A stretch of 48,414 nucleotides of DNA from Aurantiochytrium sp. KH105 (Eukaryota > Sar > Bigyra > Thraustochytrida > Thraustochytriidae). The position numbers and the translations under genes are program-made. Shown here piece after piece: positions 32,484 through 40,922 of this stretch. Numbering within the stretch: the stretch's first letter is position 1; each line of letters starts with the position of its first letter. The notes beneath the pieces are model-generated. The model worked only from the letters and a program-made list of their open reading frames with translations, was not told where the DNA came from and did no database searches. The stretch spans positions 1 through 48,414 of the forward strand of contig BGKB01000266.1 in the NCBI GenBank assembly GCA_003116975.1, read 5' to 3'.

Positions 32484-35354
32484 ATGACGACCATGGAGCG
32501 GAACTGCACGCTCCTGATCCACATGGATAAGGGCATGCCCCCAACGGCTCAGGAGATCCAGGAGGACCTCGAGAGCGGCAAGCCCGGGCAGCAGGTGCGC
32601 GGCCTGAAAACGCTCATTCTGCTGCTCCTCAATGGCGAATCGCTGCCGAAGCTCCTCATGACGGTGATCCGGTACTGCGTCCCCTCGCAGGACCACGAGG
32701 TGAAAAAGCTGGTCTCCTTGTACTGGGAGTGCGTGGAAAAGTACGGCGAGGACGGTAAGCTCCGCGAAGAGATGATCCTCATGTGTAATGCGCTTCTTAT
32801 GAATCTCAAACATCCCAACGAGTTCATCCGTGGCTACACGCTCCGCTTCCTCTGCCGCGTCAAGGAAGCCGACATCGTGGAGCCCCTCGTGGCCGCCGTC
32901 AAGGAAAACCTCGAGCATCGCCACGCGTACGTGCGAAAGTACGCCGTCATGACCGTGTACACCATTTTTAAGAACTTTGGTGACGATCTCATGCCCGATG
33001 CCGACGATCTCATCGAGACCTTTCTGAAGAACGAAGCCGACGCCAGCGCACGCCGCAACGCGTTTTTGATGCTTTACCAGTGCTCGCAAGAAAAGGCCAT
33101 CGACTACTTTGTGGAAAATGTCGAGAACGTGCAAAAGTATGGCGACGGCTTCCAGCTTGTCATCCTCGAGCTCACCCGCAAGGTCTGTCGCACCAACCCG
33201 GCGCAAAAGTCGCGCTTCATCAAAATTATCTTTCAGCTGCTCCAGTCGCAGTCCTCGGCTGTGTGCTACGAGGCGGCCTGGACGCTCGTCTCGCTGTCGT
33301 CTGCGCCCACCGCCGTGCGCGCTGCCGCCGAGACCTACACCATGCTGCTCAATGCCGAGAGCGACAACAACGTCAAACTCATCGTGCTTGAAAAGCTCAT
33401 GGAAATGCGCCGCCACCACTCCAAGATCCTCCAGGGACTCCTCATGGACATTATGCGCGCGCTCGCGAGCCCGAACGCTGACATTCGCCGCAAGACGCTC
33501 GCCATTAGCATGGAGCTCGTCTCGCCCCGCAACATCAACGAGGTGGTGCTCATGCTGAAAAAGGAGATCCTCAAGACCCAGAGCAAGGATATGGATCGCG
33601 AGTCCGCAGCAGAGTACCGCCAGATGCTCGTCAAGGCCATTCATCAGTGTGCTATTCGTTTCGCTAACGTGGCCAGCTCCGTGGTGCACCTCCTACTCGA
33701 CTTTCTCAGCAGCGAGGGCGCAATCAACGTCATTCTCTTTGTCCGCGAAATTGTGGCCGTGTACAAGGAAATGCGCGCCTCGGTCGTGAGCAAGCTCATC
33801 GAGGCGCTCCCGGACATCAAGACGGCCCAGGTCTATCGCGTGGCACTCTGGATTCTCGGCGAGTACACGGACACGGACGAGCTGCGCCGCGAGGCTATCG
33901 AGTCCATTTACGCGTGCTTTGGAGAGCTCCCTTTTGTTGGCGCGGAGGCACGCAAACACGCCACGGAGGACGGGGAAGAAGAAGACGACGACGAGGCGAG
34001 CAAGCCCGTTGCCCAGGTCCTGGCCAAGACCCAGACCAAGGTGACTGTCTTGGCCGATGGCACCTACGCCACTCAAACCGCTCTTACGTCTGCGATTGAC
34101 GAGGACGACTTGGGTAGCAGTAACTCGGACCCGACCCTGCGCAAGCTCATGCTCAAGGGCAACTACCTTCTTGGGGCTGCGGCTGTGGCATCACTCATGA
34201 AGATTGTCCTCCGCATGCGTCGCGAGCGCGGCGCCGAAGACGACCTTGTCAAGCGGACTACCGTCAAACTCCTCATGACCTGCTGCTCCATGGTTCAGGC
34301 CGGCAAGGTCGCCAAGGGCCCCATGCGCCTCGACAAGGACTCCTACGAGCGTATTTCCTTTGTGATTCGGACTCTTCTTGACCCCACCGTGCTCGACGAA
34401 GTCGAGACGGCAGTCCTTGACGATTGCCGCCGTGTCTTTACGAGCGTCATTGAGCACGAGCGCAAGGCGCTCCGCGACCGCGAGGCGGATGCTGCCGCCG
34501 GCGTCGCCGCGCAGCCCGACGACCTCATTCTCTTTCGTCAGCTCAAGGCGCGACGCGCGCTTGGAACCACGGACGTCGATCTCGACGACGAGGCCTCGCT
34601 CTCCAGGGCCGCTGGCATGGGCGATGGCTCCGACTTTGCCGAGCAGCTTGCCCACGTGCACCAGCTGACGGGTTTCTCAGACCCAGTGTACGCCGAGACG
34701 CAGGTCACCGTGCACGACTACGACATTGTCCTCGACATTCTAGTCATCAACCGCACGCCCAACACGCTCTCGAACCTCACCGTTGAGCTTTCTACCATGG
34801 GCGATCTTCGCCTCGTGGAGAGGCCGCAGAGCTACAATATCGGTCCCAACTCGTTCCGTCGCTTTAAGGCCAATATCAAGGTGTCTAGCACTGAGACCGG
34901 CCAGATTTTCGGCAACATCGTCTATGACTCCTCGACCTCTTCGGCGCACACAGTTATCAACCTCAACGAGATCCCCATTGAGATTATGGACTACATCAAG
35001 CCAGCCACCTGCTCGGACGCCGCCTTCCGCTCCATGTGGGCCGAGTTCGAGTGGGAGAACAAGGTCGCTGTCAATACTCTCATTACCGATGTCGACGAGT
35101 ACCTTGACCACATCATTGCGTCAACAAACATGAAGTGCTTGAGTCGGGGATCGACCAAAGCGAACGGCCCTTGCAACTTTTTGGCCGCCAACCTTTATGC
35201 GCGGTCCGTCTTTGGCGAGGACGCGCTTGTCAATGTTAGCATCGAGGCCGTTGGAGGCACCGTCACTGGCTTTTGCCGCATCCGCGCCAAGGCCCAGGGC
35301 ATTGCGCTCTCGCTCGGCGACCGCGTCACTTTTATGCAAAAGACCAACAAATAA
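32484..35354 (+). CDS. COPB1: Coatomer subunit beta (beta-COP)
   Basis: A 956-residue single-exon protein, close to the 953 of human COPB1. Seen near the N-terminus: the adaptin-type HEAT solenoid with IRGYTLRFLCRVKE, EPLVAAVKENLEHRHAYVRK and YRVALWILGEY. An acidic hinge follows (GEEEDDDEASK, about residue 500), then the COPI beta appendage (NRTPNTLSNLTVEL, WAEFEWENKV, CNFLAANLYARSVFGEDAL). Beta-COP is part of the F-subcomplex of COPI. It binds ARF1-GTP and coats retrograde Golgi-to-ER vesicles. The start ATG has A at -3 region (gcacgATGA) and is the only reasonable one. The full family length indicates an intact gene. Confidence 0.97.
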   Translation: MTTMERNCTLLIHMDKGMPPTAQEIQEDLESGKPGQQVRGLKTLILLLLNGESLPKLLMTVIRYCVPSQDHEVKKLVSLYWECVEKYGEDGKLREEMILMCNALLMNLKHPNEFIRGYTLRFLCRVKEADIVEPLVAAVKENLEHRHAYVRKYAVMTVYTIFKNFGDDLMPDADDLIETFLKNEADASARRNAFLMLYQCSQEKAIDYFVENVENVQKYGDGFQLVILELTRKVCRTNPAQKSRFIKIIFQLLQSQSSAVCYEAAWTLVSLSSAPTAVRAAAETYTMLLNAESDNNVKLIVLEKLMEMRRHHSKILQGLLMDIMRALASPNADIRRKTLAISMELVSPRNINEVVLMLKKEILKTQSKDMDRESAAEYRQMLVKAIHQCAIRFANVASSVVHLLLDFLSSEGAINVILFVREIVAVYKEMRASVVSKLIEALPDIKTAQVYRVALWILGEYTDTDELRREAIESIYACFGELPFVGAEARKHATEDGEEEDDDEASKPVAQVLAKTQTKVTVLADGTYATQTALTSAIDEDDLGSSNSDPTLRKLMLKGNYLLGAAAVASLMKIVLRMRRERGAEDDLVKRTTVKLLMTCCSMVQAGKVAKGPMRLDKDSYERISFVIRTLLDPTVLDEVETAVLDDCRRVFTSVIEHERKALRDREADAAAGVAAQPDDLILFRQLKARRALGTTDVDLDDEASLSRAAGMGDGSDFAEQLAHVHQLTGFSDPVYAETQVTVHDYDIVLDILVINRTPNTLSNLTVELSTMGDLRLVERPQSYNIGPNSFRRFKANIKVSSTETGQIFGNIVYDSSTSSAHTVINLNEIPIEIMDYIKPATCSDAAFRSMWAEFEWENKVAVNTLITDVDEYLDHIIASTNMKCLSRGSTKANGPCNFLAANLYARSVFGEDALVNVSIEAVGGTVTGFCRIRAKAQGIALSLGDRVTFMQKTNK

Positions 35355-35801
35355 TGATGGGCCAGATTACTACAGTTCCCTTGTCATCGCTTCGAGCACC
35401 GCTAGCTATGAGGTTATAACAGCCTAGTTCCAACACTTGACATACATGCTCTGGGATCTCTTTCGATCCAGGCTGCCACATTTTTTGCCTTCGATGGGGA
35501 GAGGGCGCGGAGAGAGGTGCTTGCGGGCCAAGAGCAAAACTGCGAACTCTCTTGCCTTGCCCGCAACACGAAGGTCGACGCGCAATTTCGGCAACGCAAC
35601 ATGAACAGGAAAAAATGATAAGAGTACCAAGCTTCTTCTTCTTCTTCTTCTTCTTCTTCTTCTTCTTCTTCTTCCTTCTCAAAGTAAGTAGTCGAGTCCA
35701 CAGTTTGGTTGTCGTAGTAGCTTGGACGAGTGGGAAAAAAATAAATAAGAAAATGTGCCCAAAACTCCATTGGCAAGTGACATCTCTGGCTCTCTCACGA
35801 T
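35355..35801. other. 3' flank of beta-COP with (CTT)14 tract
   Basis: It contains (CTT)14 at 35632-35673 and AATAAA near 35740. It leads into the presumed right end of the IS607-like element. No gene is seen. Confidence 0.6.
35632..35673 (+). repeat. (CTT)14 trinucleotide microsatellite
   Basis: Fourteen perfect CTT units, about 130 bp outside the presumed end of the mobile element. Confidence 0.95.
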
Positions 35802-35822
35802 AACGCTACTATTAAAACCTAT

Positions 35823-35944
35823 AACTCAGCTGAAAATCTCGTTTTCCTCTTGGGAGACTGGGAGCATCCTCGGTAGATTTCTGCAATGATGGGATCGTAA
35901 GAGGACTACGCTTGCCCATCACAGGCCGTAGAGGCAAAGGCTTG
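35823..35944 (-). ncRNA. Possible omega-RNA (guide scaffold) region 3' of tnpB
   Basis: TnpB/Fanzor guide scaffolds normally cover the 3' end of the nuclease gene and the adjacent element end. These 122 nt between the TnpB stop and the presumed element boundary are the place to look. A small hairpin CGTA(AGAGGAC)TACG is visible at about 35897-35911. Placement is by analogy only; no conserved scaffold could be aligned. Confidence 0.3.
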
Positions 35945-37228
35945 TCAAAAGACAGAGGCCGCATACCGACCCATGTAGGTAGTCATGAATCGGATAAGAA
36001 TATTGCGCGCACCATTAATATCGCGGTCGGCGACGTAGGAACAGTTCGCGTGTGGGCAGCGAAAGGTCTTGTCACGACCAATGCCTGTATGGAGACGACC
36101 ACATTGGCCGCATGTCTTGGTAGTGTAGGCCTCGCCCGTGATGAACACCTTGGTCCATGAGTTAAGTTCCGCGTGCTCGAGAAGGTGTTGCCTGAATGAG
36201 TAGTGACTCCACGTCAACAACTTTCGCGCCGTAGCGGATGTAATCTTCCGCGAGCCACGAAGGACCATTTGACTGGTGTCGAAGGTGGGGAGAATAACAA
36301 CACGATAGTTGTTGCATAGCCAAGAGGCCAACTTCCTGTGCATCTCCTTGACGAGACGTCGAATGCGCACGAAAATCTTGCGCCATGCTCTATGGCGTCG
36401 ACGACGTTGCTGCTTGTTGCTGGCGTTCTCAATATTTGTTTGAAGACGATCCGCATGCCGACATAAGCGATAAATGCGCTGTATATCAGACTTGCCCCAT
36501 TCCGTGACGAGACCATCCGCATCAAATGTCGTCATGAAGCACCTCACGCCCGGGTCCATGGCCACCGTCGAGTGAAAGCCGGTCTCAGGGGCATGGTCAT
36601 CGCCCTTGATCTCAACACTCATCGGGATGCACACATAGAAACAGCCGTGAAAGTCTCTGACAATACGAACCGTCGCTTCCACCTCGGTCGGCAATATGCC
36701 CTCTGCCGCGCGTAAAGCTGGTCCAAATAGACCAGCATATTTCCCAGATTTGCGATTCCAGTCACGTGCACGCACTTCAAAGCTCTGCTGTCTGGCTTTC
36801 TTCGTCCTGAAATTGAACTTTGCTTTTTCGCTCACTTCCGTTTCGCCCTTCTTCTTCTTCGCGAAATGAGCTTGCCGTGCCTTATCCATGTCTCGCACGG
36901 CGGAGTCCCTCACCTCGTGGGGAACCTCTTGGAACCAATCATGCGCCTTCGCGTATTGGGATAGCTCGTGGCGCATCGTCGTCTTGCTCACTTCATGTTC
37001 GACAAGCCTGAACTTCTCCACCAGTTTGTTGTAGGCGAATCTCATAGTTCCAAACCATCTGAGCAGCTTTTGTTCTTGCTCCTTTGTCGGATAAACGCGA
37101 ATTTTGCGGGCCCTAATAGTCTTGGACTCGTCGATCTCGATCTCATCGTCGTCGAGAACAGACGCCTTCCGCTTGTTCTTGTTTGGTTCGTTCTCTCCCG
37201 ACGGGACCTTGTCTTCCCGGGACATCAT
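35945..37228 (-). CDS. tnpB: TnpB / Fanzor2-type RNA-guided nuclease (IS607-associated)
   Basis: 427 residues from the ATG at 37228; Met-Met gives 37225 as an alternative. Seen: a Lys/acidic N-terminal segment, the OrfB helix-turn-helix part (RARKIRVYPTKEQEQKLLRW), RuvC-I Asp225 in AMDPGVR, and the zinc finger CGQC...CPHANC (Cys373, 376, 391, 396). RuvC-III Asp403 is in ADRDINGARNIL. At the usual RuvC-II position (VVILPTFDTSQMV) there is no Glu. Instead Glu366 sits in GEAYTTKTC, just before the zinc finger, as described for Fanzors and related TnpBs. Such proteins cut DNA guided by an omega-RNA transcribed from the element's end. The frame stays open and coiled-coil-like for about 70 codons before this ATG, overlapping tnpA. 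A non-AUG start or frameshift fusion is possible. Confidence 0.88.
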   Translation of the reverse strand: MMSREDKVPSGENEPNKNKRKASVLDDDEIEIDESKTIRARKIRVYPTKEQEQKLLRWFGTMRFAYNKLVEKFRLVEHEVSKTTMRHELSQYAKAHDWFQEVPHEVRDSAVRDMDKARQAHFAKKKKGETEVSEKAKFNFRTKKARQQSFEVRARDWNRKSGKYAGLFGPALRAAEGILPTEVEATVRIVRDFHGCFYVCIPMSVEIKGDDHAPETGFHSTVAMDPGVRCFMTTFDADGLVTEWGKSDIQRIYRLCRHADRLQTNIENASNKQQRRRRHRAWRKIFVRIRRLVKEMHRKLASWLCNNYRVVILPTFDTSQMVLRGSRKITSATARKLLTWSHYSFRQHLLEHAELNSWTKVFITGEAYTTKTCGQCGRLHTGIGRDKTFRCPHANCSYVADRDINGARNILIRFMTTYMGRYAASVF

Positions 37229-37328
37229 GGACCACTCATACTGCTGTCGATACGCGGCGATCGCCTGCAGCTCCCCTTGCGCCCGGGTTACCTTCTTCTC
37301 CAGCTTCTCTCGCGTAGCTTCTGCATCA

Positions 37329-38003
37329 TCAGAAGCGGCGAGTGCGTCCAGCTCTTCCAGCGTCTTCTTCACCTTCTCCTCTAGCTTCCTCTGCCTCTTC
37401 GCGGCGTCTCTTGCGATTCGCAGCTGCTCTACGTCCGTTATGACTTGCCACAAGGAGCGTCGTGATAGCGAGCAGGTCGTCGGCGTCGGCTGTGCACATG
37501 TCGCTGCACTGGCTGTGAACCACGACCCGAGCCCCAAATTTCGCAAGGATCTGCTCCAGGATGGGGTATCCAACACGCGCAAGCCTGTCCTTGTGCAAGA
37601 CGACAACTTCCTTGAGACTTCGGTTGAAAGCGAGGTCCAAAAGGGCTTGCAGGCCTTTCCGACGGAAATTGGCGGCAGGTCCGGTATCCCAGATGACGCG
37701 GTGATCGGGGTATGCTCGACTGAGCTCAGCGACCTGTCGTTCGAGGTCGCCACGCTGCTTCGCGGAAGAGACCCGTGCGTATATGACGCACTGTCCGTCT
37801 CCGGCGTCGGCACGCGGAAGCCCGACGAGCTCGAAGACATCAGAGACGCAATAGCATCGCTTTCCACCAGGGAGACGAATCAAGCGGATACGTTTGCTGT
37901 CGGCGCTTTTACGTAAAAAGTCTTGCGACACACCCAGACGTTCCACGAAGTATTTACCGGACCTGAAGACGGGTTCTGCCCGACCCCCACTCACGTCAGA
38001 CAT
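37329..38003 (-). CDS. tnpA: IS607-family serine recombinase (TnpA)
   Basis: 224 residues from the ATG at 38003. Seen: an N-terminal MerR-like helix-turn-helix (FVERLGVSQDFLRKSADSKRI to KRCYCVSDVFELVG). The serine-recombinase core follows, with VIYARVSS (Arg77, nucleophile Ser79) and QRGDLERQV. TGPAANFRRKGLQALL corresponds to the IS607 SGxNFxRxG motif, and KDRLAR is at 138-143. The C-terminus has DDLLAITTLLVASHNGRRAA plus a basic/Glu-rich tail. Putting the DNA-binding domain before the catalytic domain is typical of IS607 and opposite to resolvases. It should bind the element ends and mediate excision and insertion with little target specificity. The catalytic residues look intact. The tail overlaps the extended tnpB frame. 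Confidence 0.93.
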   Translation of the reverse strand: MSDVSGGRAEPVFRSGKYFVERLGVSQDFLRKSADSKRIRLIRLPGGKRCYCVSDVFELVGLPRADAGDGQCVIYARVSSAKQRGDLERQVAELSRAYPDHRVIWDTGPAANFRRKGLQALLDLAFNRSLKEVVVLHKDRLARVGYPILEQILAKFGARVVVHSQCSDMCTADADDLLAITTLLVASHNGRRAAANRKRRREEAEEARGEGEEDAGRAGRTRRF

Positions 38004-38252
38004 GCGTGGGTGAGGTCTCGTTTCGGTTTTGCTGCCCGACCTTTCGGGTTTGCTGGATCACCAAACAGCGTAGACGATCCGAGCTTCTAGAAGGAATACT
38101 CGGATCAATACAATCCGCGCTAATATTGTATATAGCTTTGTTCACCAATGATCGTTTGATTAGTATATTCGTTCCTACCCTAACGACCTAACGACCGTCG
38201 TTAGTGAATAGGTTTGCAAAGCAAACGTTAACAAAACTATTTTCTAACCTAT
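38004..38252. other. Presumed left end of the IS607-like element with clustered palindromes
   Basis: CCCGA/TCGGG (38033-38046), GATCCGAG/CTCGGATC (38076-38083 and 38099-38106, enclosing the palindrome CTTCTAGAAG), CTAACGAC-C-GTCGTTAG (38188-38204), GTTTGC/GCAAAC (38212-38226) and ATAGGTT/AACCTAT (about 38208-38252). They are candidate recombinase binding sites or the tnpA promoter/leader. Confidence 0.55.
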
Positions 38253-38444
38253 CGGCAACGGCCACAAGCAACTTGGAGCAAGGCAGCAAGCCCAAACTCA
38301 ACCACGGCAGACGGGTAGGTGCAGCGCCGCGTCGGGTTGCGTAGCGTAGCGCTTTCTGGCTGCAGACACGTCGACCGACGCATCTGAGGAGGCCACGAGG
38401 CAGCGTCGGCAGAGTGGCGCAAACACGAGAGGCAAGCAGCAATC

Positions 38445-40922
38445 ATGGAGCCCGACGACGCCCTGGACGAAGTGGAGGCCGCCATCCGGCGCGCGGAGGA
38501 GCTCATGTCGAGAGACCTTGAGCTGCTCGCCGCGGCAACGTCACCCAACGAAGTGGATGGAGAAATGAATTTCCATGAAAAGGCCTTTGCCGTGGGAGAT
38601 TGGCGCCTGAACGCGGGCGAATTTGAGGTGAACGACGAGGAAGGGTTTTTCGAAACCAATCTCGCGCTCAACCGCAGCACAAGTCAGCGTCACCAGGGCG
38701 AACACACAGAGTCGGAAATTGCGGCTTCGTCACCGTCTACGCGAGAAACAAGCAGAGATGAAACCTCCTCTCAAATACAAGAGTCAAGAGAAGCAAGTGT
38801 GAACGACAACAACAACAACAACAACAGCGAGCTCAAGCCAAAGACTGCTGCTGCTGCTGCTGCTGCTGATGCTGCGACAAGGTATCGAAGCCGCGAGGCG
38901 CGCGAAGCCTTGATTGAGCGATTGCTACGAGAACGAGAAGAGGCCGTTGCTGCCAAGCTCGAGGTACAACAATTAGCCAAGGAAGTGGAAGAAAAGGAGC
39001 GAGAACAGCGCGAGCAAGAAAAGGCTCGCCTCGAGAGCCTTGAAAATCAGCAGCGTGAGGAAAACAAACAGAGAAGAGATCGCAACACGTCAATGCCATG
39101 GTCAAGGGCCGGCGGAGGACGCCCACAATCTGCGAGCGGAAGACGTCCCCACTCTGCTGGTGTCCACTCTGCGAAATTCACTCGGAAAACACTTGATCAA
39201 GTCCGACGCCAGGTCGAGGAGGAACGCGCCCGGGACTGCACCTTTAAACCACGGCTCGCACGCTCCAAAGGATCAAACATTGCGTCCAAACTGCGCAACG
39301 AAACCCCGGAAGAGCGTCTTTTGCGACTCGCTCAGCCCAAGAGTGAATATTGGGTGCGCTTCGAGGAGGAACGCGCAGCACGTGAATCTGCAGAGTTGCA
39401 AAAGGACTGCCCCTTCAAGCCAGATATTTCGCTCGCGCAGCCAAACGAAGTCACATCAGAATGGCAACAGCGCGTCAAAGAAGCGTACCGAAATCATGTG
39501 CCAGTAGAAAAACGTCTGCATCTAGATGCCAGTGAACGTTGGGCCGCACGTGAACGTGCCAAGCGCGAGCTTGAGGAAGCCGAAATGCAGGCGCAGCCCT
39601 TCCGTCCTCGAGTAAACCCTGTATCCGAGGAGATTGCCAAACAAACGGACTATGAGCCCATCGAACGTCGCGCTGCACGGGTCCAGCGCGAAAAGCAAGA
39701 GCGTCTCGTGAAGAAACAGCTCGAATTTGAGCTTAGCGACGGCAATCTCACCTTTAAACCGACCATTAACGAAGAATCACAACGGCTTGCGCTCGGCGCC
39801 TCGCTGCGTCGCGGCGAAGTCCCCTCTGGAAATGTCGTGGATCGGCTGCTTAGCCGGAACAACAGCGTTCACGAGCGGAAAAAGCATCGCGAGCAAATGG
39901 CTGCCCAGCAGCAGGATGGCGAGTGCAATTTTCAGCCCAAGGTGTCGAGTAACTCTGCAAGCCTTCTCCGCGGTAACGAACTGTACGATGGAGCGACCAA
40001 TTTTGTGGATCGTCAGCAAAAACTCGAGGAGCTTCGTCGCCAGCGCGCTCAGCAACGTCAGGCTGCGGCGCATGATATGTCTGGAGTTGCCACCTTTCGT
40101 CCGAAAACGCATCGTCCTGAAGCAATTCTCGTGCGCTCGCGGCCAGAGCTTCTCGCCGAGACCGAGGAGCAGCGCTACGAGCGACTCGCGCGTCGTGATC
40201 AGGAACGCAAAGAGCGCCTGCGGGCATCCATTCGCGAGCACTATTATTCACAATATGAACACAAGCCCCAGATCAACCGTGTATCTGCCGAAATTGTGCG
40301 CGGCACGCACAAGGCTGGTCCAGCACTCTTCGAAGACTTGCACCGGAACGAGCGCGGCCGTCATTACCGGGAAATGGCGCGCTCGCAAGTGGCCGAGGAG
40401 TCGCTCAAGGACTGCACCTTCAAGCCCAAAACCCTCAATCGTCCGGGAGCAGAGCCGTCAGCCGCGATCCGGCTCTCTCGTTTCAACGCAGAGCAGACCA
40501 TTGAGCATATCGAGCGTAGTCGTCGTCACAAGGAGCTTCGTCTTTTGGAACAGAAGCGTGAGCAAGAGTTCGAGGAGCTTCGTGAGTGCACCTTTACTCC
40601 GGCAGTGAATGCGGGCGTACCTCGACCCGCTTCTGCAGAAGGTGGCGGTCGTGTCGGCGGTCGTGTCGTAGTGCGAGGTCTTAACCGCCACTTGGAAAAG
40701 CAAGAGCTGGCAAAGCGTCAGGCGCAAGATCTGCGCGATCGTGAGGCCAAGGTATTTCTGGAAGACGCCGATAGAATTCAATCTGCACCGTACACCGTGC
40801 CAGAGCCCTTTAATTTGTCCCGAGGCAATGGTCCAAAGCAGACGGGCCCGCAATACTCGTTTCACCCGCAAACGAACCTCAAGACTAAGCGCAGGCAAAT
40901 TGCACAGATTCTTGGTCGGTAG
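38445..40922 (+). CDS. CTFxP-repeat coiled-coil protein, probably ciliary/basal-body associated
   Basis: 825 residues from the ATG at 38445, single exon. It has an acidic N-terminus, poly-Asn (about 125-130) and poly-Ala tracts, and a Glu/Arg-rich coiled coil (about 145-210). About ten repeats spaced 40-90 residues follow, with a (D/E)C(T/N/P)FxP core followed by basic text: DCTFKP, DCPFKP, QPFRP, LTFKP, ECNFQP, TFRP, DCTFKP, ECTFTP, YSFHP. Between repeats are RAARxRxERxxR heptads. Proteins of this style, without enzymatic domains, occur in flagellated protists and are often found in cilia or basal bodies. I do not recognise a named orthologue. Thraustochytrids have flagellated zoospores, which would fit. 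Function is inference. Confidence 0.7.
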   Translation: MEPDDALDEVEAAIRRAEELMSRDLELLAAATSPNEVDGEMNFHEKAFAVGDWRLNAGEFEVNDEEGFFETNLALNRSTSQRHQGEHTESEIAASSPSTRETSRDETSSQIQESREASVNDNNNNNNSELKPKTAAAAAAADAATRYRSREAREALIERLLREREEAVAAKLEVQQLAKEVEEKEREQREQEKARLESLENQQREENKQRRDRNTSMPWSRAGGGRPQSASGRRPHSAGVHSAKFTRKTLDQVRRQVEEERARDCTFKPRLARSKGSNIASKLRNETPEERLLRLAQPKSEYWVRFEEERAARESAELQKDCPFKPDISLAQPNEVTSEWQQRVKEAYRNHVPVEKRLHLDASERWAARERAKRELEEAEMQAQPFRPRVNPVSEEIAKQTDYEPIERRAARVQREKQERLVKKQLEFELSDGNLTFKPTINEESQRLALGASLRRGEVPSGNVVDRLLSRNNSVHERKKHREQMAAQQQDGECNFQPKVSSNSASLLRGNELYDGATNFVDRQQKLEELRRQRAQQRQAAAHDMSGVATFRPKTHRPEAILVRSRPELLAETEEQRYERLARRDQERKERLRASIREHYYSQYEHKPQINRVSAEIVRGTHKAGPALFEDLHRNERGRHYREMARSQVAEESLKDCTFKPKTLNRPGAEPSAAIRLSRFNAEQTIEHIERSRRHKELRLLEQKREQEFEELRECTFTPAVNAGVPRPASAEGGGRVGGRVVVRGLNRHLEKQELAKRQAQDLRDREAKVFLEDADRIQSAPYTVPEPFNLSRGNGPKQTGPQYSFHPQTNLKTKRRQIAQILGR

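Follow-up and report, generated by a model that had tools for sequence, protein, structure and literature searches.

A Fanzor2-carrying IS607 transposon in a thraustochytrid genome with a predicted dual-coding overlap of tnpA and tnpB

The window analysed here is the whole of contig BGKB01000266.1 from Aurantiochytrium sp. KH105, 48,414 nucleotides (nt) in length. It contains a transposon of the IS607 type with two genes, tnpA for a serine recombinase and tnpB for a nuclease related to Fanzor2, of which the second is predicted to begin far inside the first (Table 1). An initial annotation, made from the sequence letters, had proposed a prokaryote-type IS607 element with a TnpB/Fanzor nuclease in a eukaryotic contig, and the family models, the Fanzor2 signature and the flanking genes bear this out. 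As it had also described, the two genes are co-oriented on the minus strand between a beta-COP gene and an open reading frame (ORF) with CTFxP repeats. Both genes look intact. The element had been placed to within 2 bp of the ends defined by comparison of copies. Prokaryote-type IS607 elements with Fanzor2 are already known from eukaryotes according to the available parts of PMC3627910 and PMC10711439, and those of PMC2715888 report an IS607-type recombinase family in yeast.

Table 1. Features of the IS607-type element and its surroundings (window positions)
Feature	Position	Strand	Description
Whole IS607-type element	35804..38254	-	2,451 bp, CG at both ends; from comparison of copies C266, C165 and C242 and a repeat scan
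Left-end CG (TnpA side)	38253..38254		Proposed crossover dinucleotide; from copy comparison
Right-end CG (TnpB side)	35804..35805		Proposed crossover dinucleotide; from copy comparison
tnpA	37329..38003	-	Serine recombinase, helix-turn-helix first, 224 aa, YARVSS at residues 75-80
tnpB/Fanzor2	35945..37840	-	631 aa from likely ATG at 37840; DPG, alternative Glu, zinc ribbon
Predicted dual-coding overlap	37329..37840	-	512 nt; read for tnpA and, in the +1 frame, for the N-terminus of TnpB
PFW...SWF segment	37487..37651	-	TnpB residues 64-118, wholly inside the overlap, predicted folded
Five-codon ORF	37840..37857	-	ATG at +146 from the tnpA ATG; its TGA and the TnpB ATG share one base (TGATG)
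Non-coding right end	35804..35944	-	Candidate reRNA scaffold, 141 nt after tnpB
beta-COP	32484-35354	+	Pfam Adaptin_N and Coatomer domains; one flank of the element
CTFxP-repeat ORF	38445-40922	+	Other flank of the element

TnpA matches the NCBIfam model transpos_IS607 with 117.9 bits (cut-off 110), and the match to model NF033518 begins at residue 19, ahead of the catalytic motif. Score and motif order thus agree with the serine recombinase of helix-turn-helix-first type that had been proposed. TnpB scores 140.4 bits against guided_TnpB (cut-off 100) and contains the Pfam domain HTH_OrfB_IS605 as well as a Cas12f1-like TNB zinc domain. It has D429 in the DPG motif, the alternative glutamate E570 and D607, with P518 at the canonical glutamate place. 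The combination of DPG with an alternative RuvC-II glutamate and loss of the canonical one is described as the signature of Fanzors and pro-Fanzors in the available sections of PMC10711439. By this signature TnpB is of the Fanzor2 type, and it might be a functional RNA-guided nuclease, as had been proposed. A TnpB with RuvC and zinc finger had been noted before, and the RuvC residues and the TNB domain confirm it; the ORF was present as described, and its extent had to be corrected since the frame reaches far into tnpA, an overlap absent from the initial annotation.

Wherever DNA of relatives was available, tnpB is likewise shifted to the +1 frame relative to tnpA, and this frame stays open over a long stretch before the tnpA stop. 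This open frame was compared with synonymous-codon shuffles within each tnpA in 42 loci, where the TnpA match had at least 80 bits and at least 120 profile positions, and identical DNA was taken once. By TnpB profile score the loci fall into 36 above 140 and six at or below 136, and a split by open length gives the same groups. Of the 36, eight belong to the genome of the window, and some of the rest nearly duplicate one another; one conservation test was run without six rows that were weak or near-duplicates. The shift is +1 in all 36 loci, which have 120-228 open +1 codons, and in 32 of them the open frame is longer than in the shuffles (p<0.05), whereas none of the six lower-scoring loci exceeds its shuffles. 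The four exceptions are the element of the window and its near-identical copies (the window family, L001 and L003) and a pair of copies 69% identical to it (L004 and L005), where GC-rich codons hold the frame open anyway; the excess is therefore not significant by this shuffle in the window family alone. Furthermore, the +1 frame is selectively stop-free and the +2 frame is not, with frame scores of 28.7 and 12.1, respectively. For the clade, the second frame is thus open and conserved beyond the needs of tnpA, and translation of both products is predicted. This predicted layout is shared by the Fanzor2-like IS607 elements studied, whether the contigs were eukaryotic, viral or cyanobacterial. 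Since the nucleotides are shared, decay or deletion of tnpA would damage the N-terminus of Fanzor2.

The overlap encodes the motif K-x-x-x-P-[FY]-W ... SWF, in the window KACKPFW...GSWF (TnpB residues 66 and 106). A viral-contig locus without tnpA (L083) has kept the P-F-W part and lost SWF. N-termini were surveyed in 120 listed of 221 proteins, 43 of which had N-termini under 70 aa, and a hidden tnpA frame was sought by a back-translation test, which picked up 27 of the 34 positive controls against 4 in 600 shuffles. The motif is kept in four of the five database proteins in which the N-terminus could not conceal a frame for tnpA and in five of seven ambiguous ones, all judged from proteins only. 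Two proteins, P0133 and P0139, are 89% identical in their cores and 42% in their N-termini, and both have PFW and SWF. No Pfam or PHROGs family covers the N-terminal segment, and it has no match in the PDB by sequence. An AlphaFold2 model (61 sequences) has residues 1-63 disordered, residues 64-118 confident (pLDDT blocks 69-91, most of them 77-91), helices at 136-206 and a confident TnpB core. The best match among solved structures is the mimivirus Fanzor2 (9b0l), where the alignment starts at residue 64 of the model and residue 53 of the chain, whereas with the five listed TnpB chains it begins only at 239-241. The 9b0l alignment is known by its end points only and implies no residue-level match of the PFW-SWF segment.

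Among the matches listed, the closest database TnpBs are at most 50% identical over about three quarters of the query, the named ones being from fungi and Ectocarpus, and the closest from a prokaryote, a cyanobacterium, is 36% identical. Viral-contig relatives were missed by single-sequence query and found by alignment-based queries. In the TnpB tree the window protein belongs to a clade of 56 rows (SH-aLRT 98), which includes Lipomyces, Diversispora, Gigaspora, Ectocarpus and a EukProt transcript and excludes all 22 viral-contig and six prokaryote rows sampled. In the TnpA tree it falls in a set of 39 rows (98), likewise without the viral-contig or prokaryote rows sampled. The trees used 56 (TnpB) and 60 (TnpA) of 120 listed database proteins, picked by hand or every second, and 9b0l was the only reference Fanzor2 in the TnpB tree. 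TnpB accordingly groups with Fanzor2-like relatives of fungal, brown-algal and environmental origin. Neither protein falls among the prokaryote rows sampled; a place of both in a single bacterial contaminant clade had been named in the initial annotation as a refuting outcome.

Further copies were sought in the 76-Mb assembly (367 contigs), as had been suggested. Two full-length copies, on C165 and C242, have the same ends as the one in the window (C266), unrelated flanks and 98-99% DNA identity; the three pairwise comparisons gave 13, 18 and 11 mismatches, plus gaps. Such near-identical copies in unrelated flanks argue that the ORF pair is not there by chance. A broken copy of the window family at C27:514729-519613 consists of four pieces, 94-100% identical, with its interior replaced; inserts measuring about 2.0 kb and 1.4 kb lie between the pieces. 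The 69%-identical pair lies at C200:91481-93422 and C201:84213-86154 in different flanks. CG stands at both ends of five copies from these two families, and a repeat scan of 35700-38350 found no terminal inverted repeats. This points to insertion at a shared CG dinucleotide without inverted repeats or target duplication, as in IS607 elements. No empty sites were found: the right flank in the window is single copy, and the duplicated flanks of a more distant family (family B, below) on C35 and C9 are both occupied.

Taken as a whole, we consider it very probable that the locus is a eukaryotic IS607 transposon that has recently moved, and that the N-terminal segment of its Fanzor2 is encoded in the +1 frame of the catalytic half of tnpA, about 500 nt serving two predicted proteins. 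Bacterial contamination or a chimeric assembly could be suspected from the prokaryotic type of TnpA and TnpB, but three such similar copies with the same ends on three contigs, together with a decayed copy that other inserts interrupt, the spread of related families over many contigs and trees that place both proteins outside the prokaryote rows, make this extremely improbable. The conservation of the +1 frame might instead reflect a signal in the DNA or RNA of tnpA, such as mRNA structure or a recombination or processing site, with the real TnpB start downstream, for example at an ATG pair giving MMSREDK 103 nt past the tnpA stop. This combined explanation is unlikely. It does not account for the difference in stops and score between the +1 and +2 frames, nor for a peptide motif that survives where no tnpA frame is possible; moreover, the segment is predicted to fold, and the alignment to a resolved Fanzor2 begins at this segment.

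Under the dual-coding layout, translation of TnpB could begin by leaky scanning, by reinitiation, from an mRNA of its own, or by frameshifting. The context of the tnpA ATG is weak, with C at -3, and the TGATG junction between the five-codon ORF and the TnpB frame is a possible reinitiation device. The first off-frame ATG within 330 nt lies in the TnpB frame in 18 of 21 loci, where shuffles give 15.2 (P 0.06), so leaky scanning is not claimed from AUG order. An ACG or a junction ATG, considered as TnpB start, was superseded by the longer conserved frame. The constant +1 shift and the long overlap of the frames would also fit a single TnpA-TnpB protein made by +1 ribosomal frameshifting, with no separate TnpB start. 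We regard this as very unlikely, since the listed loci have TnpB ATGs of their own in the +1 frame within tnpA, a fusion would, according to the site of the shift, lack the conserved end of TnpA or else the PFW-SWF segment, and Fanzor2s without tnpA exist.

By analogy with other IS607 elements, TnpA would excise the transposon as a double-stranded circle and reinsert it at CG dinucleotides, and Fanzor2 with the right-end RNA would cut the vacated or empty site, where repair would copy the element back. The available parts of PMC10711439 report that the right-end RNA of other IS607 TnpBs serves as reRNA. The right end of the window element may have the same role, with a guide from the flank beyond it. 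It is conserved between the window family and the 69% family, with one helix and two compensated pairs; its fold is not unusually stable (z 0.09), and Rfam gave no match at E<=1.

The element resembles the eukaryotic and viral IS607/Fanzor2 elements in the available parts of Bao and Jurka 2013 (PMC3627910) and PMC10711439 in having TnpA and Fanzor2, no inverted repeats, and the DPG and alternative-glutamate signature. It differs in its thraustochytrid-like host, which has several families at once, and in its ends, CG in the window family and GG there. Identity to the mimivirus Fanzor2 L79 (PDB 9b0l) is at most 22%, and the N-terminus of the latter is not matched by the PFW-SWF profile. Cyanobacterial pro-Fanzor IS607 elements (Microcoleus, Scytonema, Brasilonema and others) have the same gene order and +1 overlap, whereas their TnpBs form a separate clade and are 31-36% identical over the long matches listed. 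Co-oriented, overlapping serine recombinase and TnpB ORFs are also described for bacterial IS607a (PMC9956272), in passages that do not state the length, frame or coding constraint of the overlap. The six non-Fanzor-like IS607 loci here differ in having no excess of open +1 frame.

The literature searched nowhere describes a conserved dual-coding N-terminus for Fanzor2, although some subscription papers outside the search might describe the overlap; a term search found the word 'overlap' absent from the main text, as far as available, of PMC3627910 and PMC10711439. The dual-coding layout thus appears to be the undescribed part. We lean slightly towards the view that the Fanzor2 N-terminal domain arose de novo by overprinting on the tnpA of an IS607 ancestor, and that lineages which afterwards lost tnpA, or changed carrier, recast the segment but retained its PFW-SWF core. 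This would have bound the RNA-guided nuclease to the transposase through shared nucleotides and made them an overprinted pair, conserved in contigs of cyanobacterial, viral and eukaryotic origin; it would also explain mechanically why TnpB has so long been associated with IS607 TnpA. If part of Fanzor2 lies on tnpA, constructs made from a downstream ATG would miss a conserved domain, and annotation pipelines that bar overlaps would truncate one of the two genes. Interest in Fanzors stems from their being RNA-guided nucleases of eukaryotes, and a genome with near-identical copies alongside several families would make mobility testable.

In the 69%-identical pair, roughly the first 27 codons of tnpA are missing, and sequence with a GC-rich palindrome stands in their place; the copy on C200 still has an open tnpB. 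This pair may have moved in trans. Family B is divergent, its TnpA about 38% and its TnpB 26-29% identical to the window proteins where aligned, with 28 matches at about 20 places, many of them partial. On the right, the family ends in AACGG with flank after it; on the left, the boundary is not sharp. In the TnpB tree its neighbour on a long branch is a single viral TnpB (SH-aLRT 91), and its TnpA is placed elsewhere, weakly. Two of its copies, C35:601907-602397 and C9:470540-471029, have a flank in common (97% identity) and thus arose by duplication of the element with its surroundings. On C179 near 118591 (L059/L062), the end sequence recurs almost in tandem after the right end of a family B copy. 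A third family is represented by decayed TnpB remnants on C11 (L040) and C18 (L042), which are 84% identical to each other and have a recognisable zinc ribbon.

Regarding the neighbouring genes, Pfam gave no match for the CTFxP-repeat ORF. The beta-COP is, among the matches listed, 99% identical to that of the thraustochytrid Hondaea fermentalgiana, a sign from one protein of a Hondaea-like host, and a TTC microsatellite lies at 35630-35680, between its gene and the element.
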